NCBI RefSeq assembly: GCF_003319185.1
Contig: NZ_QOHJ01000007.1
Span: forward strand, 124,001 to 188,000
Length of the DNA: 64,000 nt
Source of the DNA: Blastococcus sp. TF02A-30
GTDB taxonomy: Bacteria > Actinomycetota > Actinomycetes > Mycobacteriales > Geodermatophilaceae
Direction: 5' to 3'
Position 1 is the first letter of the stretch; each line of letters begins with the position of its first letter. The notes beneath the pieces were generated by a model. That model ran no database searches, was not told where the DNA came from, and worked only from the letters and a program-made list of their open reading frames with translations. The position numbers were made by a program, and so were the translations under genes. Positions 1 through 13,664 of this stretch are shown piece by piece.

Positions 1-595
1 CGTCGTGCCCACCGCAGCCGCAGCTGCCCTTCGCGGGGGTGGCGGGAACGGCTTCGGCGGCATGCCCGTGCCCGTGCGCTTCCTCGCCGAGCAGCTCGTG
101 CATGCCGTCGAGGATCCCGGTGAGCGAGGTATGCGGATCGGCGGCGACCACCGGCAGGACGAGGTCGTTCTCCTTGGACAGGTGGGTGTCGAACAGCACC
201 CGGAGCGCGGCACTCGTCGCGGCGGCGCGGGCCGGCTCCGCGGCGCTCCGCAGCTCCTCGACCAGGCCTTCGAGCACCCGGTGCTCGGCGACCATGGCGT
301 CGACGAGCAGGCGGAGCCGCTCCGACCGCGCGGCCGCCGGGTAGAGCGCACGCTCCTCGGCGGCGGCGTGGGGCATCAGGTAGCCGGAGAGGAAGGCCAG
401 CGCGGCGGTACGGGCCTGGGGGAAGCCGTTCCCACCGTGTGCGGTGGCCGCGGCGAGCAGTGCGTCGACGTGGGCGCCCAGCCTGCCGGCCAGCTCGGCG
501 TGGTGCTGCCGGACGGCGTCGACGGCGGCGGCGTCGTCCGCGTCCGATGCCAGGACCACGTCAGTGGCGGCGCCCGGGGGCAGGGTGATGGTCAC
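1..595 (-). CDS. Hemerythrin-domain protein, 3' end cut by the window edge
   Basis: Translation from the GTG at 595 gives a four-helix hemerythrin-type protein that binds a di-iron site and probably senses or scavenges O2 or NO in the cytoplasm. Ligand motifs in order are QHHAEL (about residue 31), MPHAAAEE, AEHRVLE and DTHLSKEND. After the fold, a His-rich linker ends in KGSCGCGGHD and the frame is still open at base 2. In relatives this kind of Cys/His linker is often followed by a DUF2249 domain, which would lie outside the window (inference). An AGGAG lies just upstream of the start. It is divergent from the regulator at 658 and probably shares its control region. Confidence 0.85.
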   Translation of the reverse strand, partial: MTITLPPGAATDVVLASDADDAAAVDAVRQHHAELAGRLGAHVDALLAAATAHGGNGFPQARTAALAFLSGYLMPHAAAEERALYPAAARSERLRLLVDAMVAEHRVLEGLVEELRSAAEPARAAATSAALRVLFDTHLSKENDLVLPVVAADPHTSLTGILDGMHELLGEEAHGHGHAAEAVPATPAKGSCGCGGHD

Positions 596-645
596 GGGAT
601 CCTCCTTCTCGCCGGCCGTGCTGGCCGACCCGCCCGCAATTTACT

Positions 646-659
646 ACGGTATGCACCGT
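646..659. promoter_or_regulatory. Inverted repeat in the divergent control region, candidate operator
   Basis: ACGGT-ATGC-ACCGT is an inverted repeat with 5-bp arms that overlaps the GTG start of the regulator at 658 and lies about 50 bp upstream of the hemerythrin gene. A short AT-richer patch (AATTTACTAC) is next to it. The position suggests autoregulation of the divergent pair; this is inferred from sequence only. Confidence 0.4.
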
Positions 660-1377
660 GAAAAACAAGAGCGACGCTCCGGCGCTGGGTCCGGCCCCCG
701 CCCGGGGCTCCGGCGGTCCGACGTTGTCCGGCCCGCGTGGCCTCGTGCTCGAGCGGCTGCAGGACTCGGCCGAGCCGGTCACGATCTCCGGCCTGGCCGC
801 TGAACTCGGCGTGCACCCCAACACGGCGCGCGAGCACCTCGACGCGCTCGTCGAGCAAGGCCTGGCGGTGCGGGGCCGCGCCCCGGCCCAGGGGCGGGGG
901 CGGCCGGCGTGGCGCTACACCGCGGCGGACGACCGGCTCGATCGCGATGTGCGGGTCCGCGACTACGTCGGCCTGGCCGCCGCCCTCGCCGGGCATCTCG
1001 TCCGCACGTCCGCCGATCCCGGCGCCGAGGGCCTCGCGGCCGGGCGCGAGTGGGGCCGCACGCTGATGAGCGACCGCCCGGCGGAGGGCGCGGCAAGTCC
1101 GAGGCACAGCGTGCTGCACCTGCTCGACGAGCTGGGCTTCGCCCCCGAGGCCGACGCCGGCGCCACCACCGTCGCGCTGCGCCGCTGCCCGCTGCTCGCC
1201 GCGGCACGACAGCACCCGGAGGTGGTCTGCCAGGTGCACCTCGGCATCGTCCGCGGTGCGCTGGAGCACCACGGCGGTGATCCGGAGCCGACGGCGCTGT
1301 TGCCCTTCGCGGAACCGGGCGCCTGCCGGCTGCACCTAGACACGGCGGCCGTCCGCGCGGGCGGCGCAGGTGAGTGA
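658..1377 (+). CDS. Winged-helix regulator with C-terminal cysteine cluster (SufR-like)
   Basis: The 239-residue protein has an N-terminal helix-turn-helix (about residues 25-85, with LAAELGVHPNTAREHLDAL as recognition region) and a basic wing. The C-terminal half carries three cysteines spaced C-X13-C-X31-C, followed by RLHL. This layout matches the ArsR/DeoR-like SufR class, where the cysteines hold an Fe-S cluster that responds to iron-sulfur status or NO. The gene starts a run with the NnrS-like and nitrite reductase genes and overlaps the next by 8 bp, so an NO- or nitrite-responsive local regulator is the best reading. The effector is inferred, not shown. The start is GTG. Confidence 0.75.
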   Translation: MKNKSDAPALGPAPARGSGGPTLSGPRGLVLERLQDSAEPVTISGLAAELGVHPNTAREHLDALVEQGLAVRGRAPAQGRGRPAWRYTAADDRLDRDVRVRDYVGLAAALAGHLVRTSADPGAEGLAAGREWGRTLMSDRPAEGAASPRHSVLHLLDELGFAPEADAGATTVALRRCPLLAAARQHPEVVCQVHLGIVRGALEHHGGDPEPTALLPFAEPGACRLHLDTAAVRAGGAGE

Positions 1378-2545
1378 GATCGTCGCGCCGCCTGCTCCCC
1401 CGCCGTCCTCACGGGCAAGCGCGGAGGCGGTGGACGGGCAGGGTCGGGCGCCTGCCCCGACCACGCGCGGGACGTCGGCGGGGCGCCTTCTGCTCCTGCT
1501 CCCCGGCGCGATTGCCCTGCTGGCGGGGTTGGACGCCGCACTGATCCTGCTGGACCTGCCCGCCCCCGTGCGCATCGACCGGTTGCCGCAGGTGCACGGC
1601 GTGCTGCTCGTCCTCGGGTTTGTCGGCACCCTCGTCGCGCTCGAACGGGCCGTCGCGCTACGCCGGCCGGCCGGCTTCCTCGCCCCCGCGCTGCTCGGCC
1701 TCGGCGGCCTGCTGCTGCTCACCCCGCTGCCCCTGCGGCTGGGGCAGACCGTGCAACTGCTCGGAGCCGCCGCGTTCGTCGGCGTGTACGCGTCGCTGTG
1801 GCGCCGGCAGCGGGACCACGCCGTTCTGGTGCAGGCGTTGGGCGCCGTCCTGGCCGGCGGCGCGGCCATCCTCTGGCTGGGCGGCGTCCCGGTCCCGTTG
1901 CTGCTGCCCTGGCTGGTCGGCTTCGTCGTCCTCACCATCGGCGGCGAGCGGCTGGAACTGGCGCGGCTGGCGATGGGACCGGGGGCCGGGCCGACGCTGG
2001 TGCTGCTCGCAGCCTGCCTGCTGGCCGGCGTCGTGGCCGCGCTGCTGTGGCCGGCCCCCGGGTCGGCGCTGCTCGGGGTCGCGCTGCTGGCGCTGGTTGG
2101 TTGGCTGGCGGCGCACGACGTGGCCTGGCGCACCATCCACGCGCAGGGGCTGACGCGTTTCATGGCGGCGTGCATGCTCGCCGGCTACTTCTGGCTCGGT
2201 GTCGCCGGGATGATCTGGCTGCTGGGCGGCGCCGCGACCACGGGGGTGCGCTACGACGCGGTGGTCCACGCCGTCTTCCTCGGCTTCACGATCTCGATGA
2301 TCATGGCGCACGCGCCGGTGATCCTGCCCGCCGTCCTGCGCCGGCCGCTGCCGTACCACCCGGTGCTCGTGGTCCCGGCCGTGCTGCTGCACGTCTCGCT
2401 GGTCGTCCGGCTGTGGCTCGGTGACGCGCTCGGGCACGAGGTCGCGTGGCGCTGGGGCGGGGTGCTCAACATCGTCGCCGTGGTCTCGTTCCTGGTGCTG
2501 GCGGCCGGCTCGGTGGTCGTCGCCGCACGGACGGCAGGCCGATGA
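1370..2545 (+). CDS. Polytopic membrane protein, NnrS-like
   Basis: The 391-residue protein has a roughly 40-residue Pro/Ala-rich N-terminus and then about ten to twelve hydrophobic segments to the end. Conserved-looking histidines sit in QVHGVLLVLGF, VHAVFLGFTISMIMAHAPVIL and YHPVL, as in the NnrS family of heme- and copper-containing membrane proteins linked to NO tolerance and denitrification. The GTG start overlaps the regulator's stop, and its own stop overlaps the next ATG (ATGA), so the three genes are translationally coupled. The NnrS label rests on topology, histidines and context and is not certain. Confidence 0.65.
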   Translation: MSEIVAPPAPPPSSRASAEAVDGQGRAPAPTTRGTSAGRLLLLLPGAIALLAGLDAALILLDLPAPVRIDRLPQVHGVLLVLGFVGTLVALERAVALRRPAGFLAPALLGLGGLLLLTPLPLRLGQTVQLLGAAAFVGVYASLWRRQRDHAVLVQALGAVLAGGAAILWLGGVPVPLLLPWLVGFVVLTIGGERLELARLAMGPGAGPTLVLLAACLLAGVVAALLWPAPGSALLGVALLALVGWLAAHDVAWRTIHAQGLTRFMAACMLAGYFWLGVAGMIWLLGGAATTGVRYDAVVHAVFLGFTISMIMAHAPVILPAVLRRPLPYHPVLVVPAVLLHVSLVVRLWLGDALGHEVAWRWGGVLNIVAVVSFLVLAAGSVVVAARTAGR

Positions 2546-5139
2546 GCCGGTCGACGGCGCAGGCACGGGGCTTCTGGCCGCTGCGCGACCTGCCGGTGGT
2601 GTTCTGGCTGCTCGCCATCGGAGTCGTCGCGCTGGCGCACCCAGTCGTCCCGGCCCCGCGATGGCTGCTCATCCACCTGCTGCTGCTCGGCGCGGTCAGT
2701 CACGCGATCCTGGTGTGGAGCCGCCACTTCGCCGACGCCCTGCTGCGCACCCCGGCACGCCCGGGGGACCGCACCTCGCAGTCGCGGCGCCTGCTGCTGC
2801 TCAACGGTGGCGCCCTGCTGGTGATGGCCGGCGTGAGCCTCGCCGTCTGGCCGCTCACCGTCGCGGGTGCGACGACGGTGGCCGGTGCCGTCGTCTGGCA
2901 CGGCGCCGTCCTGGCCGGCCAGCTGCGCCGGTCGCTGCCGGGCCGCTTCCGGTCGACCGTCCGCTACTACCTGGCCGCCGCCGCGCTGCTGCCGGTGGGG
3001 GCCGTCCTGGGCACCCTGCTGGCTCGCGGGCTGGCCGGCCCGTGGCACGACCGCGCCGTCCTGGCGCACGCCGTCGTCAACGTCCTGGGCTGGATGGGCC
3101 TGACCGTCGTCGGGACGCTGGTGACGCTCTGGCCCACGCTGCTGCGCACCCGCATCGCCGAGGACGCCGAACGCTCCGCCAGGCGCGCCCTGCCCGTCCT
3201 CGTGGGGGCGCTCCTCCTCACCGCGGCCGGGGCACTGACCGCTCCCCAGTGGGTCGCCGGTCTGGGCCTGGCCGCCTACGTGGGCGGCCTGGCGCTGGTC
3301 GCCGGTGCGCTGGTCAGCACCGCGCGCAGCCGCCCGCCATCGTCCTACCCCGCGTGGTCGGTGGCCGCCGGACTGCTCTGGCTGACCGGCTGCCTCGTCG
3401 CGGCCTCCTTGTCGGTCGGGCTGGCGGACACGTGGCTGGAGGCCGGTGAGCGGTTCCGCTGGCTGACGCCGTTCCTGGCCACCGGCTTCGGCGCGCAGGT
3501 CCTGCTCGGTGCGCTGTCCTACCTGATCCCGGTCGCGCTCGGCGGTGGGGCGGTACCGGTGCGCGCCGCCAACGAGGGGCTCGACCGCGGCGGAGCGCTG
3601 CGCATCGCCGTCGTCAACGCCGGTCTGCTGGTCTGCGTGCTGCCCGTGCCGAGCGTCGTCCGGGTCCTTGCGTCGATGCTGGTGCTCGGCGGACTGGCCG
3701 CCTTCGTCCCCCTGCTCCTCCTCGCCATCCGCGCCTCGCGCCGGGCCAAGCGCGGGGACCTGCCCGCCCGGCCTCCGGGCCGCCCTCCGGGCCAGGTCGC
3801 CGGCCTGGCCGCCACCGGCGTGGCCGTCGTCCTCGTCGCCGTGGCGACGGGCGTGGCCGTCGACCCCTCCGCGCTGGCCGACGTCCGGGCCATGTCCGCG
3901 CCGTCCTCCGACGTGGCGGCCACCGGTCGCACCACCACCGTGCGGGTCGAGGCCGCGGGGATGCGCTTCACCCCCGGCACGATCGAGGTGCCCCTCGGCG
4001 ACCGGCTCGTGATCGAGGTGGTCAACACCGACCACGACGCGGTGCACGACCTGGTGCTCGGGTCCGGGCCCGCCACCGACCGCCTGGCCCCGGGCGATTC
4101 GGCGACCCTGGACGCCGGGGTCATCGGAGGCGACGTGGACGGCTGGTGCTCGGTGGTCGGGCACCGCCAGATGGGGATGACCCTGGAGGTCCGCGCGATC
4201 GGGGCCGCACCCCTGGTGGCGGCCGTCCCGCACCACGACGGTCACCCCGCGCACGCGGCGAGCGCCGCGGACGATCTCGACTTCGCCGCCGAGGTCGACG
4301 ACGGCTTCAAGTCGCACGACCCGGTGCTGCCACCGCTGGACGACGACGTCGTGCGGCGCTTCACCTTCCCCGTGACCGAGGTCGAGCGCGAGGTCGCCCC
4401 CGGCGTGACCCAGCGGCTGTGGACCTTCGGCGGCACGGCACCGGGTCCGACGCTGCACGGGCGGGTCGGTGACGTCTTCGAGATTACCCTCGTCAACGAC
4501 GGAACCATCGGGCACTCCATCGACTTCCACGCCGGATCCCTGGCACCGGACCAGCCCATGCGGACGATCGCCCCCGGCGACTCACTCGTCTACCGCTTCA
4601 CCGCCACGCGGGCCGGGGTGTGGATGTACCACTGCTCGACGATGCCCATGTCGGCCCACATCGCCAACGGCATGTTCGGCGCCGTGGTGATCGAGCCCCC
4701 GGACCTGACCCCGGTGGAACGCAGCTACCTGCTGCTCCAGTCCGAGCTCTACCTGGGGCCTCAGGGTGGCACGGTGGACACGGCGAAGCTCATCGAGGAG
4801 CGACCCGACGCCGTCGTGTTCAACGGATACGCCAACCAGTACGACGCCCGACCGCTGGAGGCTCAGGTCGGCGAGCGGATCCGCATCTGGGTGCTCAACG
4901 CCGGTCCGAACCGGGCGACCAGCTTCCACGTCGTCGGCGGCCAGTTCGACACCGCCTACGCCGAGGGCGACTACCTGCTCCGACCGGGCGCCGGCGGCAG
5001 CCAGTCGCTGGCACTGACGCCGGCCCAGGGCGGGTTCGTCGAACTGTCGTTGCCGGAAGCCGGGCGCTACCCGTTCGTCTCGCACGTGATGGTCGACGCC
5101 GAGCGGGGGGCGCACGGCGTGATCCGGGTCACCCCCTGA
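2542..5139 (+). CDS. nirK: Membrane domain-cupredoxin-copper nitrite reductase fusion
   Basis: This 865-residue protein joins three parts. Residues 15-430 hold about eleven membrane segments resembling NnrS. Residues 455-555 form a cupredoxin with a type 1 copper set (His502, Cys536, His541, Met544 or 546). Residues 585-865 form a two-domain NirK: H658-S-I-D661-F-H663, H697-C698, H706 and M711 match the type 1 ligands, the first type 2 histidines and the catalytic Asp; H796 and H848 match the catalytic His and the third type 2 His. All catalytic residues are present, so it should reduce nitrite to NO outside the membrane, with the extra cupredoxin as a likely built-in electron carrier. The ATG overlaps the upstream stop; an in-frame GTG further upstream lies inside the previous gene. 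Confidence 0.88.
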   Translation: MSRSTAQARGFWPLRDLPVVFWLLAIGVVALAHPVVPAPRWLLIHLLLLGAVSHAILVWSRHFADALLRTPARPGDRTSQSRRLLLLNGGALLVMAGVSLAVWPLTVAGATTVAGAVVWHGAVLAGQLRRSLPGRFRSTVRYYLAAAALLPVGAVLGTLLARGLAGPWHDRAVLAHAVVNVLGWMGLTVVGTLVTLWPTLLRTRIAEDAERSARRALPVLVGALLLTAAGALTAPQWVAGLGLAAYVGGLALVAGALVSTARSRPPSSYPAWSVAAGLLWLTGCLVAASLSVGLADTWLEAGERFRWLTPFLATGFGAQVLLGALSYLIPVALGGGAVPVRAANEGLDRGGALRIAVVNAGLLVCVLPVPSVVRVLASMLVLGGLAAFVPLLLLAIRASRRAKRGDLPARPPGRPPGQVAGLAATGVAVVLVAVATGVAVDPSALADVRAMSAPSSDVAATGRTTTVRVEAAGMRFTPGTIEVPLGDRLVIEVVNTDHDAVHDLVLGSGPATDRLAPGDSATLDAGVIGGDVDGWCSVVGHRQMGMTLEVRAIGAAPLVAAVPHHDGHPAHAASAADDLDFAAEVDDGFKSHDPVLPPLDDDVVRRFTFPVTEVEREVAPGVTQRLWTFGGTAPGPTLHGRVGDVFEITLVNDGTIGHSIDFHAGSLAPDQPMRTIAPGDSLVYRFTATRAGVWMYHCSTMPMSAHIANGMFGAVVIEPPDLTPVERSYLLLQSELYLGPQGGTVDTAKLIEERPDAVVFNGYANQYDARPLEAQVGERIRIWVLNAGPNRATSFHVVGGQFDTAYAEGDYLLRPGAGGSQSLALTPAQGGFVELSLPEAGRYPFVSHVMVDAERGAHGVIRVTP

Positions 5140-5262
5140 GCCGTGGCTGCTGCCGAGACGTCGTCGCCGGCTCGCGGCACACCGGCCGGCTGACGAGCAT
5201 GGAGCCAACCGGTCCGCGCCGACGAGCGTCCGGATGGAGTCGACGGGAGGAGAGAAGAAGGC

Positions 5263-5703
5263 ATGGCGCTCGCCACCGCCCCCGCCGGACGCGACACCAC
5301 GGTCGCCGACGTGATGGTCCACCGGCCGAAGGTCATGCCGGCCGACGTCGCCCTCCGGGAGGTGGTCGAGGTCTTCGCGGACGAGCACGTCGTCATGCTG
5401 CTGCTCACGGACGCGGGAATCTTGCGCGGCACCCTCCTGCGCGAGGACCTCCCGGCCGACGCCTCTCCCACCGACCGCGCGTTACCGCTCTCCCGACTCG
5501 AGGGCCGGGTCGTGGGGCCCGACGAGCCGGCGGACACGGTGTTCCAGCGGCTCCTCGACACCGGGGCACGACGACTCGCCGTCGTCGACGGCGGCGGGAC
5601 GTTGTTGGGCCTGCTCTGCCTCAAGCGCCGTCGCAACGGCTTCTGCAGCGACGCCGGGATCGCGGCGCGCGCCCGTGGGAACCGTGGTGCCGGTGTGTCC
5701 TGA
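5263..5703 (+). CDS. CBS-domain pair protein
   Basis: The 146-residue soluble protein contains two CBS motifs: TTVADVMVHRPKVMPADVAL to about residue 60, and the repeat ending RLAVVDGGGTLLGLLCLK at 105-122. CBS pairs bind adenine nucleotides and act as energy or redox sensors. No catalytic domain is attached. A GGAGGAGAG stretch lies upstream of the ATG. It follows the nitrite reductase by 123 bp and precedes a hemerythrin, so it may be part of the same accessory module. Its partner is unknown. The basic, Gly-rich C-terminus beyond residue 122 looks disordered. Confidence 0.75.
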   Translation: MALATAPAGRDTTVADVMVHRPKVMPADVALREVVEVFADEHVVMLLLTDAGILRGTLLREDLPADASPTDRALPLSRLEGRVVGPDEPADTVFQRLLDTGARRLAVVDGGGTLLGLLCLKRRRNGFCSDAGIAARARGNRGAGVS

Positions 5704-5744
5704 CGCGACCGAGCATGCGCGGGCGCCTTCATTTTCGACGGCGA

Positions 5745-5764
5745 ACACTGTAGAAAATAAGTGT
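5745..5764. promoter_or_regulatory. AT-rich inverted repeat before hemerythrin gene
   Basis: ACACT and AGTGT flank a 10-nt AT-rich core (GTAGAAAATA). In a stretch this GC-rich the block stands out and lies 28-47 bp before the hemerythrin start, where a promoter and operator would be. It is a candidate site for the module's SufR-like regulator or another redox regulator (inference). Confidence 0.45.
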
Positions 5765-5791
5765 CAACCGTTCCGACCATGGAGGTCCGTC

Positions 5792-6259
5792 GTGACCGTC
5801 GCCCTCGAGCACCTCACCGCCGCCGCCGAGAACCACCACGAGGACCTACGGGACCGGTTGGTCTGGTACACCGAGACGCTGATCGCCGCGGTGGCGACCC
5901 GTCAGCCGCACGAGGCCGCCCGGGCGGTCCTCCTGGAGTTCCTGCGTGACGAGCTCCTCGCACACACCGAGGTCGAGGACGGCCTGCTCTTCACGTCCGC
6001 CGAGGACGACCGGACGGCGCTACTGGCGGCTGCGATGCAGGACGAGCACCGGATGGTGGCCACGCTGGTCCGGGAGATCGAGCAGACCACCGACACCATG
6101 GACCTGGTCATCGCGGCCGGCGCCCTGGTCGTGCTGTTCGACGTGTGCGTCCACCAGGAGAACCGGTACCTGCTGCCGGCCCTCGCCGCGGCGGGCGTGG
6201 ACCTGGAGGGGTTGCTCGTGGACGTCCCGGAGATCCTCGGCGCCGGGAACGAGCGGTGA
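5792..6259 (+). CDS. Hemerythrin-domain protein
   Basis: This is a complete 155-residue hemerythrin-like four-helix protein. Candidate di-iron ligands are His16, His58, Glu62, His86, His121 and Glu123 (NHHED, HTEVED, DEHRM, HQENRYLLP). The start is the GTG at 5792, preceded by GGAGG with 6-nt spacing; upstream in-frame starts would include the AT-rich control region. The expected role is binding O2 or NO or storing iron in the cytoplasm. It is a second hemerythrin in the module and overlaps the downstream cupin start by GTGA, so both are co-translated. Confidence 0.85.
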   Translation: MTVALEHLTAAAENHHEDLRDRLVWYTETLIAAVATRQPHEAARAVLLEFLRDELLAHTEVEDGLLFTSAEDDRTALLAAAMQDEHRMVATLVREIEQTTDTMDLVIAAGALVVLFDVCVHQENRYLLPALAAAGVDLEGLLVDVPEILGAGNER

Positions 6260-6624
6260 GCGGCCACCACGCCGTCGACCTGCGCGGCCTCGCCGAGGAG
6301 CTGCTCGCGGACGCCGCCATGCAGACAGCCCTGCGCGCCGCGCACACGCTGCCCCATCCCGTCGACGGGCTGCGGCAGACCGTGATCGCGCTGATCGGCG
6401 GCCAGCAGCTGGCCGAGCACGAGAGCCCCGGCCCGTCCAGCCTGCACGTCCTCCGCGGCCGGGTCCGGCTCGTCGCAGGCGACGAGGAGCTGAGCCTGGA
6501 GCAACACCAGGTGGCACCGATCCCGAACCGCCGGCACAGCCTGCAGGCCGACGACGACTCCGTGGTCCTGCTCAGCGTCGCCGTCCCCCAGCGCGCCGGG
6601 ACGCCGGAACACACCCGTCAGTAG
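6256..6624 (+). CDS. Small cupin protein, paralogue of the cupin at 63590
   Basis: The 122-residue protein has a short helical N-terminus (VDLRGLAEELL) and one cupin barrel: AEHESPGPSSLHVLRGRVRL is motif 1 and PNRRHSL followed by DDDSVVLLSVAVP is motif 2. Only a few potential metal ligands (His, Glu) are present. Over an 85-residue core 63 positions are identical to the cupin at 63590-63949. The start is chosen at the GTGA overlap with the hemerythrin stop. Its role is unknown; pairing with a hemerythrin suggests a redox or metal-stress function. Confidence 0.8.
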   Translation: MSGHHAVDLRGLAEELLADAAMQTALRAAHTLPHPVDGLRQTVIALIGGQQLAEHESPGPSSLHVLRGRVRLVAGDEELSLEQHQVAPIPNRRHSLQADDDSVVLLSVAVPQRAGTPEHTRQ

Positions 6625-7697
6625 GTGCTCACGTCGCTGCGCCCGCTGACCGCCCCCTCGCGAGCCGTCGCCTCCCGGTAGACGCTCAGCAGCATCGCCA
6701 CCAGCAGGGTCGCCCACACGGTGAAGGCGACCCAGACGCCGACCTCACCGACCACGCCGACCAGCGGCAGGTCGTCGGCCCGGGAGAGGTACGTGGCCGC
6801 GACCGCGTACATGCCGAGCGGGAAGACGATGCTCCACTGGGACGGCTCGTAGGTCAGCGGCACCCGGTGGGTGTGGTGGCGCCACCAGCCGGCGGCCACG
6901 AGCACGGGGATCAGCCAGCTCCCGAACAGCCAGATGCTGACCGACACGCCGGCCACCAGGCCGCGGACGGCCTCGACCATCGGGGTGTCGACCATCTCCA
7001 CGATGCTGGCACCCGCGAGCACCGTGATCGCCCCTGCCCCCATCGCGACCCAGTACGGCGGGGTGAGGTCCGTCGGGCGGAGCTCGTAGAGGAGGAGCCG
7101 GGCAGAGACCATGATCCCGACGGCGGCGTACAGGACCAGGCCGACCGACCACGCGAACGCCGCCACGACCGCCAGCGCGTCCCGGAGCACGGGCAGCGCC
7201 GGCTGCAGCGTCGCGGACGACGCCGCGACCGACTGCGCCGCGACCACCCAGATGAACCAAGTCCCGTTGGCCTTGGTCAGCACCGGCCGCTCCGCCCGAC
7301 CGAGGACCGAGGTCCACGGAACGACGTAGCCCAGGAGGAGCCAGGCCGACAGGCCGACCACGAGCAGCACCCCGGCCGCGAGGTGGTGCCCGTCCATCGC
7401 GAGCCGGACGCCCAGCACGTTGCCGCCCGCGATGAAGGTGAAGAACCCGAAGCCGCGGGCGGGGTCGGTGAGGTCGGCCAGCACAGCGTCGCGGAAGGCG
7501 AGCATCCGCCACACGTTGAGCGCGAGCAGGACGGCGAAGGAGACCCCGCAGACGCCCAGGAGCAGCGCGGACAGCGTCTCCTGGTCCTGCAGACGCAGGC
7601 CGACGGAGATGATGCCGCTGGCCATGACCAGCGCGAAGTAGCCGGGTGTGAGGTCCCGGACCATCGCACCGAGCCGACCCGGCTGCGCCGTTCCCAT
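6618..7697 (-). CDS. TehA/SLAC1-type voltage-dependent anion channel family protein
   Basis: About 359 residues and ten membrane segments, beginning LTPGYFALVMASGIISVGL and including GGNVLGVRLA and TKANGTWFIWVVAAQSVA, mark the TDT family (TehA, Mae1, SLAC1), which moves small anions such as nitrate, chloride, sulfite or dicarboxylates. Its tail overlaps the cupin gene by 7 bp. Next to a nitrite reductase, nitrate or nitrite movement is an attractive but unproven substrate. I chose the ATG at 7697; a GTG at 7727 would add ten residues. Confidence 0.82.
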   Translation of the reverse strand: MGTAQPGRLGAMVRDLTPGYFALVMASGIISVGLRLQDQETLSALLLGVCGVSFAVLLALNVWRMLAFRDAVLADLTDPARGFGFFTFIAGGNVLGVRLAMDGHHLAAGVLLVVGLSAWLLLGYVVPWTSVLGRAERPVLTKANGTWFIWVVAAQSVAASSATLQPALPVLRDALAVVAAFAWSVGLVLYAAVGIMVSARLLLYELRPTDLTPPYWVAMGAGAITVLAGASIVEMVDTPMVEAVRGLVAGVSVSIWLFGSWLIPVLVAAGWWRHHTHRVPLTYEPSQWSIVFPLGMYAVAATYLSRADDLPLVGVVGEVGVWVAFTVWATLLVAMLLSVYREATAREGAVSGRSDVSTY

Positions 7698-7970
7698 CAC
7701 CCCAGCGACGCTAGCGCTGGGAAGCACCTCGTGCGCCGCCCGCCGGCGTCTCGGCCGTCGGAGCCCGACCTGCTTCCTCCGTCATCAGTCGGGGCAGCCA
7801 GGGTCGCGGCCGCGGCGATGGGCACCTGGGCGGAGTGTTTGCGTGCTCATGGCGTCCGCGGCAACACGGCCCTCCGCAGGTGACGCCGTGACTCCCCCGC
7901 TCGAGCAGGACAGCACATCGGCGACCGGCCGCGTGCTCGGGCAGCGGCCCTCCCCGCGCGTCCGCTCTGG

Positions 7971-8372
7971 TCATTCGCTGTCGTCCGGCTCACGCCGGGG
8001 CTCCAACTGCGGGTCTGCTGGCTGAGCCACGTCGACCGATGGCGCGCGAGGGCCGGTTCGGCGTGAGCCGGTGGAGCCGAGTAGCGCAGCGACGACGTCG
8101 GACAGCTCACGACTTGCCGGGAGGCGGGCAGGCGGGCTGGACAGCGGAACGCGGACGCTGCGGTAGAGCTCCTCGAGCCGCTCGTTGACCGCGGTGGCCA
8201 GCACGTCCTGGTCGAAGGGATTCAGCTGCAGTAGGCCGTTCAAGTAGCCGTCGACGTCGAACAAGTCCCCATTGCCACCAAGGGCGACGTAGCGCAGCCA
8301 CAGGTCTGAGACGGTCAGCTCTCCACGCACCCGAGCGGCCTCGACCAGCTCGTGCCGGTTCTCAGGTGCCAT
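7971..8372 (-). CDS. Conserved hypothetical protein
   Basis: The 133-residue soluble protein has a helical core, with ELTVSDLWLRYVALGGNGDLFDVDGYLNG at about residues 18-46, and a charged, Pro-rich tail. I do not recognise a named family. It sits 17 bp after the GAF-ANTAR gene on the same strand and is probably co-transcribed, so it may be a signalling accessory. The 270 bp between this gene and the TDT gene contain no convincing ORF on either strand. Confidence 0.55.
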   Translation of the reverse strand: MAPENRHELVEAARVRGELTVSDLWLRYVALGGNGDLFDVDGYLNGLLQLNPFDQDVLATAVNERLEELYRSVRVPLSSPPARLPASRELSDVVAALLGSTGSRRTGPRAPSVDVAQPADPQLEPRREPDDSE

Positions 8373-8389
8373 GTCAGCCGTCGGCTCGG

Positions 8390-9055
8390 TCAGACCGGCG
8401 AGGAGTCGGCGTCGTCCGCGGTGACCGTGGCCAACAGCTCCACGGCCACCTCCCGCACCGACCGTCCGGATCGCTCAGCTGCGGCGACGAGTTCGGCGAA
8501 AGCGACCTCACGGTCCGGCGCACCCCGGCCCAGCAGGACCCCCGCGGCCTGGCTGACGACATCCCTATCGGCCAGCGCGTCAGTCAGCCGACGGCTGAGC
8601 GCCCGGGCGTTGGCCAAGTCCCGAGTGGTAGTGAGCAGGATCGCCGCCTGCCGCGCGAACAGCACCATGACCTGCTCTGCGTGCTCATCGAACCGCCCAG
8701 CCTGCAGCGCGTACAGCTTGATCGCGCCGATCTTCTCTCCGCCGGCCAGCAGCGGCGCGCTCAACGCCGACCGGACGCCCAACTGGGTGGCCGCCTCGCT
8801 CCACTTCGGCCAGCGCCGATCGCCGGCGGCGTCGTCGACACGGATCATCTGCCCGGTGCGCCAATCGACGACATCGACATGGTGGAGCGCGCCTCCCTCG
8901 AGCCGAACGGCATGATCAGTGTGATCCGCCGCGATGGGGAGGAAAGTGAACCGGCCGAACGTCCGGAAGCTCTGTAGCTGGTATCGCGCGATCAAGCCGC
9001 GGCAGGCGACTGAACCACGGTGCCTCTTGCACTGGGCAACTACCGCTCGATGCAT
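8390..9055 (-). CDS. GAF-ANTAR domain protein, N-terminus uncertain or lost
   Basis: From the ATG at 9055 the product has 221 residues. The second half of a GAF domain is clear (VDWRTGQMIRVDDAAGDRRW, then LGVRSALSAPLLAGGEKIGA and a long helix), followed by an ANTAR RNA-binding domain (RRLTDALADRDVVSQAAGVLLGR). ANTAR proteins bind paired hairpins in RNA and act as antiterminators. The first 60 or so residues lack the usual GAF start and are rich in Arg, Cys and His, so the gene may be 5' truncated or rearranged. It lies next to the tRNA-derived att-like site, where an integration break is plausible. Confidence 0.65.
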   Translation of the reverse strand: MHRAVVAQCKRHRGSVACRGLIARYQLQSFRTFGRFTFLPIAADHTDHAVRLEGGALHHVDVVDWRTGQMIRVDDAAGDRRWPKWSEAATQLGVRSALSAPLLAGGEKIGAIKLYALQAGRFDEHAEQVMVLFARQAAILLTTTRDLANARALSRRLTDALADRDVVSQAAGVLLGRGAPDREVAFAELVAAAERSGRSVREVAVELLATVTADDADSSPV

Positions 9056-9503
9056 GGAAGGCGCCCAGAGGTCGTGGTGGGGCGCGGCACGCAGAAGGTC
9101 GGCGAGGTTGGGCCGACTCCGTGCGTGGCGCACACCATGGCAACGCGATGGTGCAGAGCGGCTCGTCCACCGGGGGGCTGCGGTAAGGCACGCGAAAGGC
9201 ACGCCATCCAACTGACAGGTCTCTGACCAGGTAGTCTGCCCCCGGAGCGACCATGCCTTCCAAGCTGGCCATGCCGGTTCGATCCCGGTCACCCGCTCCA
9301 CATCCTGACCTCGATGACCCTCAACACCGGGTTCGGCCGGTGCGCGGAGCACGGATGAGGCAGGTCCTCGAGAGACCGTTCCTGACGAACCGACTCGGCC
9401 CTCTCCGAGCCTGCGCGCGCTACCGTCCGGCGTCCGCACGCCAATGGGCGTCACCGTGGCGGCGCAAGCGGCCCGGCCGCCCTTCCCCTGTCCGGAGGTG
9501 GTC
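9056..9503. other. Non-coding stretch holding the tRNA fragment
   Basis: No ORF here has convincing codon use or family similarity. The left part (9056-9250) looks like decayed sequence upstream of the GAF-ANTAR gene. Bases 9255-9300 are the 3' half of a tRNA-Gly. The rest, to 9503, is the leader of the heliorhodopsin gene, ending with its GGAGG ribosome binding site at 9494-9498. Confidence 0.6.
9255..9300 (+). other. 3' half of tRNA-Gly(UCC), probable attachment site
   Basis: The fragment reads as anticodon loop CTTCCAA (anticodon TCC), 3' anticodon stem GCTGG, a 4-nt variable loop, T stem and loop GCCGG-TTCGATC-CCGGT, acceptor strand CACCCGC, discriminator T and encoded CCA. Upstream bases do not form the 5' anticodon strand, D arm or acceptor strand, so this is not a working tRNA. 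Homology stopping at the anticodon stem is typical for att sites of tyrosine-recombinase elements, where the 3' end of a tRNA is duplicated. The orientation implies that an intact tRNA-Gly and the element lie to the left, beyond base 1. Confidence 0.75.
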
Positions 9504-10292
9504 GTGACCAGCACCGGTCCCGGGTCCGCACCGGTCGCGACGGGCGTCGACGACGCGCGCCTCGCCGGCCTCCGGCGCTGGAACCTGGCGCTGACAGTGC
9601 TGCATGCCGCGCAGGCCGTCGCGGTCCTCCTGCTGGCCAGCAGCTTCGCCATCACCGTGACGTCGTCGTTCCCAGCCGGTCCGCCGGGTACGGCGGTGCC
9701 GGCGCCGGAGCCGCTGGTCGACGTCGGCGTGGGCGCGGCGATCGCGGTCTTCCTCGGGCTGGCCGCGCTGGACCACCTGCTGACCGCCACCGTGCTGCGC
9801 CGGCGCTACGAGGAGGATCTCCGCCGCGGCCTCAACCGGTTCCGCTGGCTGGAATACTCGGTCAGCTCGACCATCATGGTGCTGCTGATCTGCGCCTATA
9901 CCGGCATCACCGGCCTCAGCGCGCTGATCGGCATCGCCGGCGCCAACGTCGCGATGATCCTTTTCGGCTGGCTGCAGGAGCTGATGAACCCGCCCGGCCG
10001 CACCCGGACGACGATGCTGCCGTTCTGGTTCGGCTGCGTCGCCGGGGCCGCGCCCTGGGTGGCGGTCACCGCCAACATCGTCGGGGCCGAGCAGATACCC
10101 GGCTTCGTCTACGCAATCTTCGTGTCGCTGTTCGTCTTCTTCATGAGCTTCGCGGTCAACCAGTGGCTGCAGTACCGGGAGATCGGCCCGTGGCGCAGCT
10201 ACGCCTACGGCGAGAAGGCCTACCTGCTGCTGAGCCTGGTCGCCAAGAGCCTGCTCGCCTGGCAGATCTTCGCCGGCTCACTGGCCACCTGA
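9504..10292 (+). CDS. Heliorhodopsin
   Basis: The 262-residue protein has seven membrane helices and the signature of heliorhodopsins rather than type 1 pumps. In the third helix RWLEYSVSS carries the carboxylate counterion Glu117, and the last helix has SLVAKSLLAWQ with the retinal Schiff-base Lys248; QYREIGPWRSYAYGEKAY precedes it. Heliorhodopsins are retinal-binding light sensors with an inverted membrane orientation and no clear ion pumping. The GTG start follows GGAGG by 5 nt. No carotenoid cleavage gene lies nearby, so retinal must come from elsewhere. The gene begins about 200 bp right of the tRNA fragment. Confidence 0.93.
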   Translation: MTSTGPGSAPVATGVDDARLAGLRRWNLALTVLHAAQAVAVLLLASSFAITVTSSFPAGPPGTAVPAPEPLVDVGVGAAIAVFLGLAALDHLLTATVLRRRYEEDLRRGLNRFRWLEYSVSSTIMVLLICAYTGITGLSALIGIAGANVAMILFGWLQELMNPPGRTRTTMLPFWFGCVAGAAPWVAVTANIVGAEQIPGFVYAIFVSLFVFFMSFAVNQWLQYREIGPWRSYAYGEKAYLLLSLVAKSLLAWQIFAGSLAT

Positions 10293-10451
10293 TCCCGACA
10301 CGCGGCACCAGGTGAGGACCCAGCGCCCCGCCGCTGCGTGGTCAACCTCGACTCGGTCGAGGCGTCTCCACGGCACCTCGACGTCCCCTCGGCAGGACCC
10401 CCGTGGGCGCGTACGCGATCACTCGGGACGCGGGTTCTCCCCGTCACGGAC

Positions 10452-10826
10452 TCAGCTCGCCGCGCCGTCGAGCAGCCAGTGGTATCGGAGCCGGAGCCCC
10501 CGTTCCATGCTGGCCATCACCGCACCCAGGCCCAGGGCGACGGTGAGCCACAGCGGCAGCTGCACCGGGGAAGCGAAGCCCCCGTACCGGTCCACCACGG
10601 GAGGGATCCGGCCGACCACGTCCACGAGCTCGAGGACGACGACGCTCAGGCCGCCGACGAGCAGCACCACGGACATGGCGCCGATGGACCGGCTCAGGGC
10701 CGGGTGGTCGTGCTCGAGGCGGAGGCGGCGCCCGGCGGCGGACCGCGGGTCCGGGACGAGGCGCTGCTCTCGCCCGTCGGGGGTGACGTAGTGGCAGCGC
10801 TTGAGCCCGAACATGGTCGCGGCCAC
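10452..10826 (-). CDS. Small membrane protein, unknown
   Basis: The 124-residue protein has a basic N-terminus (FGLKRCHYVTPDGREQRLVPD) and two or three hydrophobic segments (AMSVVLLVGGLSVVVLELV at about 50-68 and LPLWLTVALGLGAVMAS near 92-108), ending RLRYHWLLDG. I do not recognise a family. The start may be the GTG at 10826 or the ATG at 10814. It is convergent with the heliorhodopsin gene. The 279 bp to its right up to 11105 hold no supported gene. Confidence 0.5.
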   Translation of the reverse strand: MAATMFGLKRCHYVTPDGREQRLVPDPRSAAGRRLRLEHDHPALSRSIGAMSVVLLVGGLSVVVLELVDVVGRIPPVVDRYGGFASPVQLPLWLTVALGLGAVMASMERGLRLRYHWLLDGAAS

Positions 10827-11105
10827 CTCGATGACGCCGCTCTCGTCGTGGCCGGCTTCGACCGCTGGTGCGTCATCGCGGCCCCCCTGTCGGCGAACGT
10901 CTCCCGGTCATCGCGCTCCTTGCAGCGCCCTGGCCGCGCCCAGCGGCCGGGGTCCCGTGCCGGCGATCTCCTGCGTCGACGCTTCCGGGGATCGCCTTCC
11001 GCGACCAGGGCCCATGCGCACGACACCGAGCCGACCAACGCCCCTGTCGGCCGGCCGTGGCCCGCCGCAACCTTCGGGGGCCCGGGGGCTTCATGGAGGT
11101 GCGTG

Positions 11106-11375
11106 GTGGACCAGCAGCCGGAGACGACGGCGAAGTACCTGCGCGTGCGGGTGCTCGACCACAGCAAGGCGGACAGCCCGGCGGTCACCATCACGGTGCC
11201 GATCGGCGTCGTCCGGTGGGGGATGTCGATGGCGCAGGCCTTCTCCCCGCAGATGAAGGGCGTCGACCTCGACTGGGACAGCGTCACCGCCATGGTGGAG
11301 GACGGCGGCACCGGGAAGATCGTCGAGGTCGAGGACGAAGGCCAGCAGAAGACGATCGAGATCTGGCTGGAGTGA
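11106..11375 (+). CDS. Small conserved hypothetical protein
   Basis: The 89-residue acidic protein reads LRVRVLDHSKADSPAVTITVPIGV, then RWGMSMAQAFSPQMKGVDLDWDS and a strand-rich acidic end (GKIVEVEDEGQQKTIEIWLE). The pattern of two strand pairs around a helix resembles small SHOCT-like/YvlB-type stress-associated proteins, a tentative family assignment. The GTG at 11106 follows GGAGGT by 5 nt, which decides the start over the GTG at 11103. It appears monocistronic and converges on the enoyl-CoA isomerase-like gene. Confidence 0.6.
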   Translation: MDQQPETTAKYLRVRVLDHSKADSPAVTITVPIGVVRWGMSMAQAFSPQMKGVDLDWDSVTAMVEDGGTGKIVEVEDEGQQKTIEIWLE

Positions 11376-11410
11376 GGCCGGGCGGCGGGCCCGCTGCCCG
11401 GCCGTCCCGG

Positions 11411-12079
11411 TCAGCCTCGCGGAGCCGTCCGGTCGCGCAGCACCGCGACCACCGGCGCGTACATCCGCTGCTTGATCGTGGCCAGGGTCGCGCCGGCCTT
11501 GCCGGCCAGCGAGCCGGCCAGCTCCACGGCGGCCGACCGCACCGCCTCCTCGACCGCGGCGTCGACGATCCCGGCCGCGAGGGCGTCCCCGCCCCCGTAG
11601 CGGCGAGCAGTGGTCATGGCCACGTGCGCCGTCTGCGGCGTCAGCCGGGCCTGGATCAGCGCTGACATGCCCGGGGTGAACGGGATCTCGATGTCGACCT
11701 CGGGCAGGCACCAGAAACCGCGATCGGCCCGCATGACCCGGAGGTCGTGGGCGAGGGACAGCATGGCCCCGGCGGCGAAGGTGTGCCCCTGCATCGCCGC
11801 GACCGTGGCCACCGGCAGGGTCAGCACGCGGGCGAACAGCTCCTGGACCCGCACGACGTAGTCCTCGCTCTGGTCGGCGTGCGCGAGCAGCCAGTCGAGG
11901 TCCAGGCCGTTGGAGAAGAACTTGCCGGTGGCCGTGGTCACCAGGGCGCTGGGCCGGCCGGCCCCCTCGACCTCGTCCAGCGCCGCCTCGACGGCGGCCA
12001 ACCAGTCGGGGTGGAAGCGGTTCTCGGTGTCGCCGAGGTCGAGGACGAAGACGTCGTCGGTGCGGTCGAGCGTGGGCAT
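11411..12079 (-). CDS. Enoyl-CoA hydratase/isomerase family protein
   Basis: The 222-residue crotonase-fold protein has the oxyanion-hole motifs GKFFSNGLDLDWL (about 52-64) and GHTFAAGAMLSLAHDLRVM, and a single acidic residue in LPEVDIEIPF. One glutamate at that position is typical of Delta3,Delta2-enoyl-CoA isomerases rather than hydratases, so a role in unsaturated fatty acid beta-oxidation is likely. AGGGA precedes the ATG. The divergently functioning partner is the MarR regulator directly upstream on the same strand, probably its regulator. Confidence 0.8.
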   Translation of the reverse strand: MPTLDRTDDVFVLDLGDTENRFHPDWLAAVEAALDEVEGAGRPSALVTTATGKFFSNGLDLDWLLAHADQSEDYVVRVQELFARVLTLPVATVAAMQGHTFAAGAMLSLAHDLRVMRADRGFWCLPEVDIEIPFTPGMSALIQARLTPQTAHVAMTTARRYGGGDALAAGIVDAAVEEAVRSAAVELAGSLAGKAGATLATIKQRMYAPVVAVLRDRTAPRG

Positions 12080-12108
12080 GGCGGTTCCCTCGGTTCGGAG
12101 TGGTGTGG

Positions 12109-12543
12109 TCAGCGGGCGGCGAGCCGGGAGAGCTCGGTCGTGCGCGCCAGCCAGCGAGCGACGGTGGCCAGCTCCTCGGGTGTGAAGCCGTCGACGAGCA
12201 GCTCGTTGAGCTCGGCGAGGATCGAACGGGCCGCCGCCTCGACCTCGCGGCCGCGCGGGGTCAGGCTCAACCGCACCGCGCGGGCGTCAGCCGGGTCGGG
12301 CGTCTTGCGCAGCAGGCCGGCGGCGGCGAGCCGGTTCACCAGGCCGCTCGTCCCGGCCGCGGACGCGTTCAGGGCCGCCGTCACCTCGCCGACCAGCGCG
12401 CCGTCGTGGGCGGCCAGGTGGAACAGGACGCCGGCTCCTGCCGCGCCGATCCCGCTGTCGCCCGAGCGCCCGTCGACCCAGCGCCGCACAGCACGCTCGG
12501 CCGACATCAGCCCGAGGACGAGCCGCGGCGGACTAGTTCGCAT
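12109..12543 (-). CDS. MarR-family transcriptional repressor
   Basis: The 144-residue protein has the MarR winged-helix layout: a helical dimerisation start, recognition helix ALNASAAGTSGLVNRLAAAGLLRK and wing DPADARAVRLSLTPRGREV. It precedes the enoyl-CoA isomerase-like gene by 29 bp in the same direction, so it probably controls an acyl-CoA or aromatic catabolic gene and itself. The ATG at 12543 sits in the centre of a perfect palindrome and 7 nt after a TAGATT box, indicating a leaderless, self-repressed transcript. Confidence 0.87.
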   Translation of the reverse strand: MRTSPPRLVLGLMSAERAVRRWVDGRSGDSGIGAAGAGVLFHLAAHDGALVGEVTAALNASAAGTSGLVNRLAAAGLLRKTPDPADARAVRLSLTPRGREVEAAARSILAELNELLVDGFTPEELATVARWLARTTELSRLAAR

Positions 12544-12556
12544 GCGAACTAATCTA
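12534..12556 (-). promoter_or_regulatory. Leaderless promoter with 18-bp palindromic MarR operator
   Basis: TAGTTCGCATGCGAACTA (12534-12551) is a perfect palindrome covering the MarR start codon. On the minus strand TAGATT (12551-12556) ends 7 nt before the ATG and fits a -10 box of a leaderless transcript. Repressor bound here would block both initiation and start-codon access. Confidence 0.75.
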
Positions 12557-12593
12557 GCCGATCCGCTTCGCGCGCCCGATCAGCCCTCGTGGC

Positions 12594-13577
12594 TCAGTCG
12601 AGCGCCGCGGGGAGGCCCAGCTTCACGAACAGACCCGAGCCGAGGTCGAGGAAGCTGGAGATGTGGGCGATCCGGCCGTCCTCGATCTCCAGCACGTGCA
12701 GCCCCCACGGCTCGTGCCCACCACCCGCGCGGGGCCGGTACTGCGCCACCGCCGGCGTGCCGTTCGCCGAGACCGGGAGGAGCCGCGATCCCGCGCACTC
12801 GCTGCCCGGGCCCCGCATCCAGGTGCCGATGTCCTGAGCCCCGCGGAGCCACATCTCGAAAGGGGGCATGTGCTGCGTGGCGTCCTCGTGCAGCAGCCGC
12901 ACGAAGGCGTCGATGTCGTACCGCTCGAAGGCGTCGAGGTAGCGCTCGAGCAGGTCGCGCGCCTCGTCGTCGAGGGTGCGGGGCGCCGGCCGGCCGCCGA
13001 GGTCCGCGAGCGTGGCGCGCGCCCGCTGCAGCGCGCTGTTCACCGAGGCCACCGTGGTGTCGAGCAGCTGGGCGACCTCGTCGGCCTTCCAGCGCAGCAC
13101 CTCGCGCAGGATCAGGACGGCTCGCTGCCGCGGGGGCAGGTGCTGCAGCGCCGCCACGAACGCCAACCGCACCGACTCCCGGGCCACCGCCTGGTCCGCC
13201 GGGTCGCCGTCCTCGGGCAGGACCTGCCGGTCGAGCACCGGCTCCACCCAGGCCGTACCCGGCCGCCGGCCGGCGAGCGAGGCCTCCACCGGCGGGTACG
13301 GGTTGCCGGCGAGGTCCATCGGCAGCGCCCGGCGCTGCCGGCCGGACAGCTGGTCGAGGCACACGTTGGTGGCGATCCGGTACAGCCACGACCGCAGCGC
13401 CGACCGGCCCTCGAAGTCGTCGAGCGCGCGCCAGGCGCGCACCAGCGTCTCCTGGACGGCGTCCTCGGCGTCGAACACCGAGCCGAGCATGCGGTAGCAG
13501 TAGCCGGTGAGCTCGCGGCGGTGCTCGAGCAGCCGCGGGTCGAGCTGGTCGGTCGGGCCGAGGGCCACGCTGGTCAC
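12594..13577 (-). CDS. ECF RNA polymerase sigma factor with SnoaL-like C-terminal domain
   Basis: The 327-residue protein has sigma region 2 (about 18-85, [19 protein letters not shown] and [13 protein letters not shown]), region 4 (about 150-205, [21 protein letters not shown]) and a C-terminal SnoaL-like domain (about 210-320, [22 protein letters not shown] and [12 protein letters not shown]). This architecture matches the SigG/SigX5 type, in which the SnoaL domain replaces a classic anti-sigma factor. No anti-sigma gene is adjacent, consistent with that. The GTG start gives MTSVALG. The target regulon is unknown. Confidence 0.88.
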
Positions 13578-13664
13578 CCGGGAATCACCCCTCCGGTCGA
13601 TGTGGGCGCCAGCACACCACAGGGCACCGACAGTCCGGGAGGGGTCGGGGCCCGGACCACCCGG

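Follow-up and report, generated by a model that had tools for sequence, protein, structure and literature searches.

A putative 30.4-kb integrative island carrying nitrate and nitrite reductase genes at the tRNA-Gly(UCC) gene of Blastococcus sp. TF02A-30

Gene content of the locus

The window analyzed here, that is, the whole stretch of 64,000 nucleotides, corresponds to G000:C36:124001-188000 in the 4.13-Mb genome of Blastococcus sp. TF02A-30 (contig coordinates, prefixed C36, are used for the parts outside the window). At 9255..9301, on the plus strand, the window contains the detached 3' part of a tRNA-Gly(UCC) gene; an intact tRNA-Gly(tcc) gene, adjoining a tRNA-Pro gene, was identified with ARAGORN at C36:102784-102857. 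The two bracket a segment of 30,443 bp (C36:102812 to C36:133254), of which the right 9.3 kb (window 1..9254) are within the window, and the left 21 kb, or two thirds, lie outside it along with the intact tRNA-Gly gene. Genes were called with a codon-usage script, and the start positions are approximate.

The left end of the segment encompasses a PIN-domain gene (C36:103113-104108, Pfam), two ORFs without a Pfam match, an XRE regulator (C36:106406-106894, minus strand), an HTH_17/excisionase-like gene recognized by family match that ends at C36:107493 (plus strand), and a tyrosine integrase with Phage_integrase and SAM-like domains (C36:107880-109013, plus strand), in which we discerned by eye TGLR, HDLR, GH and Y residues that we take to be typical of tyrosine recombinases. 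The integrase gene is located 5 kb from one end of the segment and 24 kb from the other, adjoining neither. A PHROGs search with six left-end proteins retrieved regulator, excisionase and integrase families only, and PADLOC, run on ten proteins, produced only weak HTH matches.

The cargo that follows, up to the left edge of the window, encodes, in this order, a flavohaemoglobin-like protein, a hemerythrin, a NarK-like MFS protein, NarI, NarJ, NarH, NarG, a ferredoxin-like protein, an HTH protein, another hemerythrin, an acyl-CoA dehydrogenase, and DsbA-like and MauE-like proteins. The window edge itself falls within a gene for a 274-aa hemerythrin and DUF2249 protein (C36:123771-124595, minus strand; window part 1..595). 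Further to the right are an HTH regulator with HTH_20/ArsR-like Pfam matches (658..1377, plus strand), a 371-aa protein that is hydrophobic by eye and has no Pfam or NCBIfam match (1430..2545, plus strand), and an 865-aa NirK fusion (2542..5139, plus strand) whose long N-terminal part matches no family and looks hydrophobic by eye, and is followed by the cupredoxin and copper nitrite reductase (NirK) domains detected with Pfam. These are followed by a CBS-domain protein (5263..5703, Pfam) and a hemerythrin-domain protein (5792..6259, Pfam), both on the plus strand, a 122-aa protein that is cupin-like by eye only, with no Pfam match (6256..6624, plus strand), a SLAC1-family anion channel (6618..7664, minus strand, Pfam), a 133-aa protein with no Pfam match (7971..8372, minus strand), and a GAF-ANTAR protein (8390..8995, minus strand, Pfam) whose 5' end is not fixed, the open frame running on to 9454. 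NarG, NarH, NarJ and NarI scored above the NCBIfam cut-offs, and the matches of NarK, NirK and the flavohaemoglobin were below theirs; in the case of the 865-aa protein, the score against TIGR02376 was 154.6 bits, under the cut-off of 296.3, and the best match among nitrite reductases in the PDB had E=5.2e-48. The GC content of the cargo (0.718) is between those of the left (0.708) and right (0.754) flanks, and the integrase end alone is lower (0.665).

The annotated functions suggest a pathway in which nitrate would be reduced to nitrite by Nar and nitrite to NO by NirK, with the flavohaemoglobin-like protein and the hemerythrins predicted to handle NO. An initial sequence-only reading of the window had placed this nitrite/NO module inside a mobile element, and the nitrite/NO genes indeed lie between the two copies of the tRNA-Gly sequence.

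The attachment core and the arm-type sites

The fragment and the intact gene share a 47-bp exact repeat on the same contig and strand, with an offset of 30,443 bp: window 9255-9301 (C36:133255-133301) is identical to C36:102812-102858, which covers part of the intact gene and extends just beyond it. The repeat starts 2-3 bases inside the 5' strand of the anticodon stem and ends one base past the CCA. Thus, the detached 3' half described in the sequence-only reading is real, with a length of 47 bases rather than the 46 given there, and the break of homology that it had located at the anticodon stem is in place. The fragment is not a stand-alone tRNA gene, because ARAGORN calls a single tRNA-Arg in the window; an Rfam cmscan of window positions 5000-15000, up to E=5, gave no entries near the fragment. 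Nor is the match due to chance, given the results with reversed controls: the last 25 bases of the fragment occur at exactly 2 sites in the 4.13-Mb genome, with one 2-mismatch site on contig C11, and the 43-base core, at up to 3 mismatches, matched 56 times in 23 genomes, compared with 0 matches for the respective reversed controls (the former in this genome). A search of C36:84001-144000 at E 0.01 detected the tRNA 3' part at no third place. Removal of the 30.4-kb segment in silico, by script, produced an intact tRNA-Gly(tcc) call.

Short repeats that might serve as integrase-binding sites mark both ends of the segment. The right-end pair AGGCACG-N4-AGGCACG is at 9186..9203 (plus strand) and precedes the 43-mer core by 71 bp; elsewhere in the genome, this pair recurs only at C36:102975-102992, at the opposite end of the segment, where it is accompanied by one inverted copy of the motif. 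Thus, the initial statement that the window contains no other marker of the island is not quite accurate. Across 23 congeneric genomes, the pair was matched 39 times (reversed control, 3), with 32 of the 39 pairs within 300 bp of a match to the tRNA-Gly or half core: 14 at -70 to -72, 17 at +160 to +162 and one at +172; the remaining 7 are away from any such match. This near-fixed spacing is as expected of putative arm-type integrase sites. The single motif, [A/G]GGCACG, is present 46-58 bp upstream of 17 of the 26 detached halves typed in the examined stretches, which also contained 23 intact genes; 9 halves lack it. We considered the 140 bp that follow the tRNA as a possible ancestral flank and rejected this interpretation in favor of an element arm: the same sequence is found behind detached halves as well, and the paired repeats lie within it.

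We conclude, with a probability of about 0.9, that the fragment is the attR site of a 30,443-bp integrative island inserted in the sole tRNA-Gly(UCC) gene detected in the genome, an island for which excision and transfer would be predicted. This conclusion follows from the order and orientation of attL and the half, the presence of the integrase, the xis-like gene and the XRE regulator inside, and the arm pairs at both ends. Weighing against it are the interior position of the integrase, a cargo that in nar identity and GC content is not conspicuously foreign, the lack of a fully empty site among the relatives, the 7 arm pairs away from any core match, the 9 halves without the motif, and the 65% integrase of G016, located 5' of its tRNA-Gly. 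The search to the left that the sequence-only reading had proposed thus yielded both an intact tRNA-Gly(TCC) gene sharing the whole fragment in the same orientation and, between the two, a tyrosine integrase, which supports its view of the fragment as an att site with the element on the left. Mechanistically, the integrase would bind the paired AAGGCACG arm sites together with the tRNA core; strands would be exchanged within the anticodon loop or directly beside it; and the tRNA would be made whole again by the 3' half that the element brings, with the old half displaced to window 9255-9301. A simple segmental duplication or the decay of a tRNA gene, in either case without site-specific recombination, could be invoked on the grounds that the two copies also share a 70-bp stretch of 77% identity downstream of the core, but this explanation is strongly disfavored by the perfect 47-bp core, the integrase inside, the restriction of the arm pairs to the ends and the occurrence of the same layout in relatives, and we consider it extremely improbable.

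The right flank

The 70-bp similarity (77%, E=4.7e-8) is between the left arm and the DNA just past the fragment, where a decayed copy of the left arm can be delineated at 9327..9375 (plus strand; limits read by eye); this match suggests a relic of an older element to the right of the fragment. The DNA of the window becomes homologous to that of relatives again at 12,592-12,626, at the 3' edge of a sigma-factor gene (12 relatives' examined stretches). Because homology returns only at about 12,592, the segment from the att half to the conserved core, 9302..12590, is variable too, and is itself a probable relic of an earlier element. The placement of the island to the left of the fragment holds, with the qualification that the DNA adjoining on the right is not conserved chromosome. 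This segment contains a heliorhodopsin gene directly to the right of the att half (9444-10292), an enoyl-CoA-hydratase family gene (11411-12079) and a MarR family gene (12109-12489). The heliorhodopsin gene was evaluated as an ancestral right flank and rejected: it was matched in 6 of the 60 genomes searched, this one included, and in the 1.5 kb examined in front of its two close relatives there is no tRNA.

No fully empty site was seen among the relatives, the nearest approximations being three genomes (G009, G019 and G010) with about 2.4, 2.5 and 3.4 kb, respectively, between the tRNA-Gly gene and the conserved sigma-factor gene, and these intervals carry other genes. Comparison with relatives revealed neither of the two patterns that had been named at the outset as contradicting an att site, namely, an intact tRNA-Gly gene elsewhere with no shared flank and close relatives with the same fragment lacking an inserted segment; the comparison did not supply an empty site either.

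Class of the element

The layout is of a known kind, that of tRNA-gene genomic islands. Islands of the Islander type are defined, in the available part of the description (PMC4383910), by an intact tDNA, a cognate 3' fragment downstream, an integrase inside and a length of 2-200 kb. In the present case, the intact tRNA gene is followed in the same orientation by its cognate 3' fragment, the gene between them is a tyrosine integrase, the length is 30,443 bp, and the fragment is clear of any conserved protein domain: of the three ORFs that overlap it and were examined (82, 118 and 354 aa), two lack Pfam matches, and the third carries its GAF and ANTAR domains more than 380 bp away. The anticodon-centered crossover class is also shared with Islander islands as described there; the nar/nir cargo, the interior position of the integrase and the reuse of the site in 20 of 22 congeners set the present island apart from that general description. 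Among the called island genes, there are no Pfam matches to relaxases, type IV secretion systems or coupling proteins that would identify an ICE, no phage structural genes that would identify a prophage, and neither a RepSA-type initiator nor an FtsK/SpoIIIE-like translocase, the features attributed to AICEs in the accessible text of PMC11706625; several small ORFs have no family assignment.

The attB site of mycobacteriophage L5 overlaps a tRNA-Gly gene, according to the part of PMC9262239 available to us. As described there, L5 resembles the present island in using a tyrosine integrase and a site of about 40 bp over a host tRNA-Gly gene that is rebuilt upon integration, and differs in that the island lacks phage structural genes among its Pfam matches. 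Mycobacteriophage integrases among the matches listed are about 33% identical to the island integrase, with L5 itself outside this comparison. We also considered, and discarded, the possibility that the integrase stems recently from a phage or plasmid: a tblastn search of 849 phage records and 46 plasmid records retrieved nothing at 60% or more.

The site and the integrase family in relatives

At least one detached half is present in 20 of the 22 congeneric relatives. In G001, the single core match is the half, and in G006 and G013 it is the intact gene; some of the halves are on contigs other than that of the intact gene, so that their placement relative to it is not fixed. Of the 59 relatives searched besides this genome, 8 encode integrases at least 85% identical to that of the island, at a total of 9 places; in addition, G003 contains fragments of such an integrase and G016 a 65% relative. 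In all 10 genomes in which such an integrase, 85% or more identical, could be assigned to the same contig as the intact gene and a half (the present one, G002, G007, G008, G015, G060, G061, G063, G065 and G066), the integrase is located between the intact gene and a half. A wider scan of contigs yielded 18 integrase loci, 13 of them at no less than 85% identity, from Blastococcus, Geodermatophilus, Modestobacter, Klenkia and one record labeled unverified Bacillus. Among 14 loci (L122-L135), the excisionase-like protein of the island was matched in 12 and the XRE regulator in 10, all 10 of the latter with a CpaF-type gene upstream; Pfam analysis of the copy in Blastococcus aggregatus identified Tad/Flp pilus proteins.

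Several further arrangements were observed at such sites. In G021, a TGGGTCACG repeat at the half is accompanied by a 42%-identical integrase, so that this tRNA-Gly gene seems to be a target of two or more integrase classes. In G016, the 5' part of a tRNA-Gly gene followed by an arm pair is found 37.5 kb upstream of the intact gene (G016:C1:521211-558835), and the 65% integrase ends about 40 bp 5' of the intact tRNA-Gly, as if the element were in another arrangement. The intact tRNA-Gly of G001 (G001:C29:142331) is 90.5% identical to that of the present genome, yet the detached half is 98% identical; the 3' half of this gene may have been swapped by an element. Halves with a variant T arm, changed on both sides of the stem, occur just to the right of the integrase in L125, L126, L133 and L134, near 16017. 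In the present genome, a second site on contig C11 (G000:C11:465481-482728) consists of an intact tRNA-Gly(ccc) gene at 482651-482728 and a partial match at 465481-465559, with an integrase (41%) at 466814-467893 and a TrwC relaxase at 471463-472332, and is probably another island of about 17 kb.

Conjugative-looking relatives and the origin of the island

A related structure is present in Klenkia terrae IHUMI-26.3, where a block extends from the tRNA-Gly gene at 648898-648971 to a half ending at 755873 (G060:C4:648898-755873) and encodes a TrwC relaxase-helicase-primase, a TraG/TrwB-type coupling protein and a Tad pilus operon. About 95 kb of this array (660982-755873) match B. aggregatus DSM 4725 (G022:C11:177783-272848) in five pieces (94.35, 99.98, 99.94, 99.88 and 99.87%), and strain MG754426 likewise in five pieces of 93.2-99.98%; in B. 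aggregatus, the matching stretch stops one base past the CCA of the half, and in MG754426 it continues for another 14 bp. Contamination of assemblies is possible, yet contamination alone would not put the break at a tRNA half. Interpretation of the Klenkia block as a single 107-kb element is weakened by a diverged half (87.8%) inside it, at 702524-702572, 5 kb to the right of the integrase, a weaker match being located near 697.7k; a conjugative-looking element of about 54 kb and a 53-kb segment probably make up the block in tandem. A circularly permuted copy of the Klenkia array on contig C11 of B. aggregatus was initially considered; however, past the joint there is a relaxase region that has diverged (about 67% nucleotide identity), and two abutting elements are assumed instead.

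The island shares with the Klenkia array an integrase that is 89% identical, the tRNA-Gly core, the arm sites and the XRE/xis/int gene order, and differs in its cargo. When nine Klenkia-array proteins, including TrwC, the coupling protein and CpaF, were compared with C36:102858-136600, only the integrase was matched; the other eight, transfer, Tad and neighboring proteins, had no match in the island. Judging from these gene comparisons, the island is probably a non-conjugative derivative of such elements. We consider it reasonably likely that it descends from a family of conjugative elements of Geodermatophilaceae, that its transfer genes were lost, and that it would depend on a helper for movement. 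Three TrwC relaxases are encoded elsewhere in this genome (on contigs C17, C8 and C11), and a helper is therefore conceivable. As a more tentative proposal, in which we place limited confidence, there would be a single family of Geodermatophilaceae elements with one integrase and arm-site code for tRNA-Gly(UCC), in which conjugative members equipped with TrwC, the coupling protein and the Tad pilus would cross genera, and stripped members would ride the same machinery and spread the nitrate-to-NO block; the Tad pilus might serve DNA uptake. Tad-dependent natural transformation is described for Micrococcus luteus in the consulted part of PMC4322843.

The prevalence of tandem arrays also bears on the unity of the island. 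The integrase end and the nar/nir end could derive from two tandem elements of the same class fused by deletion, in which case the cargo would not have been brought by this integrase, although the outer ends now delimit one unit. Compatible with such a composite are the P' arms that follow detached halves in G012, G019:C3 and G022:C13, the two related elements abutting in G022:C11, the Klenkia array with its second, diverged half 5 kb to the right of the integrase, and the homology of the island to its cousins, which stops at C36:105954. Between the ends, however, there is neither a third tRNA-Gly fragment nor an internal arm pair, although a fused joint would leave none anyway, and we regard a composite origin as unlikely.

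The nitrate respiration block in relatives

NarG homologs with at least 88% identity are encoded in 7 of the 22 relatives (in G008, the gene is split over two frames, and G006 has a second NarG at 66%). The nucleotide identity of the nar genes to those of relatives, about 83-88%, is similar to that of the core-flank pieces (mostly about 76-92%). Given this distribution and the core-like divergence, the nar/nir block looks genus-resident, and a fresh import of nar from outside the genus is not supported by the identities.

In G001 and G019 (both flanks) and in G004 (one flank, the other being a contig end), narGHJI is found at a place matching C36:185.8-187.9k of the present genome, that is, at about 61.8-63.9 kb of the window, where this genome has no nar genes. 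G003 and G006 share a further nar place, G014 holds parts of the block, and in G008 about 18 kb of cargo are collinear with the island at 4.68 Mb. The nar contig includes the tRNA-Gly site in G001, G008 and G019, with nar not located at that site, and has no tRNA-Gly core match in G003, G004, G006 and G014. These observations raise the alternative that the block is native to the vicinity of the locus and was enclosed or captured rather than imported, as would be suggested by the three relatives in which narGHJI is located some 52 kb to the right, where the present genome lacks it, and by the core-like divergence of the nar genes of the present genome. The presence of nar at other places, namely, the one common to G003 and G006, that in G008 with its long collinear cargo, and that in G014, fits movement of the block instead, and we consider a native origin somewhat unlikely.

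Mobile nitrate respiration is already known from Thermus thermophilus, where nitrate respiration genes reside on the nitrate respiration conjugative element (NCE), according to the available parts of PMC5748679 and PMC6282519. The likeness of the present island to that element is one of description, without sequence comparison, and consists in nitrate respiration genes on a mobile element; the host is unrelated, and no conjugation genes were recognized in the present island. This island was not found described among the matches listed for nitrate/denitrification islands or Geodermatophilaceae, a set represented by titles and the beginnings of abstracts, with few subscription papers. Here, a nitrate/nitrite respiration block of a soil actinobacterium appears packaged between intact-looking attachment sites, and the att core, putative arm sites and integrase can be specified for an element family reused across a genus; excision, transfer, and gain or loss of nitrate respiration thereby become directly testable, and the same components represent a candidate site-specific integration system for Geodermatophilaceae.

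In G008, the nar/nir cargo of about 18 kb (G008:C1:4669331-4697425) lies near another integrase (35%, at G008:C1:4669331), and a different element may therefore serve as a further vehicle for the block.
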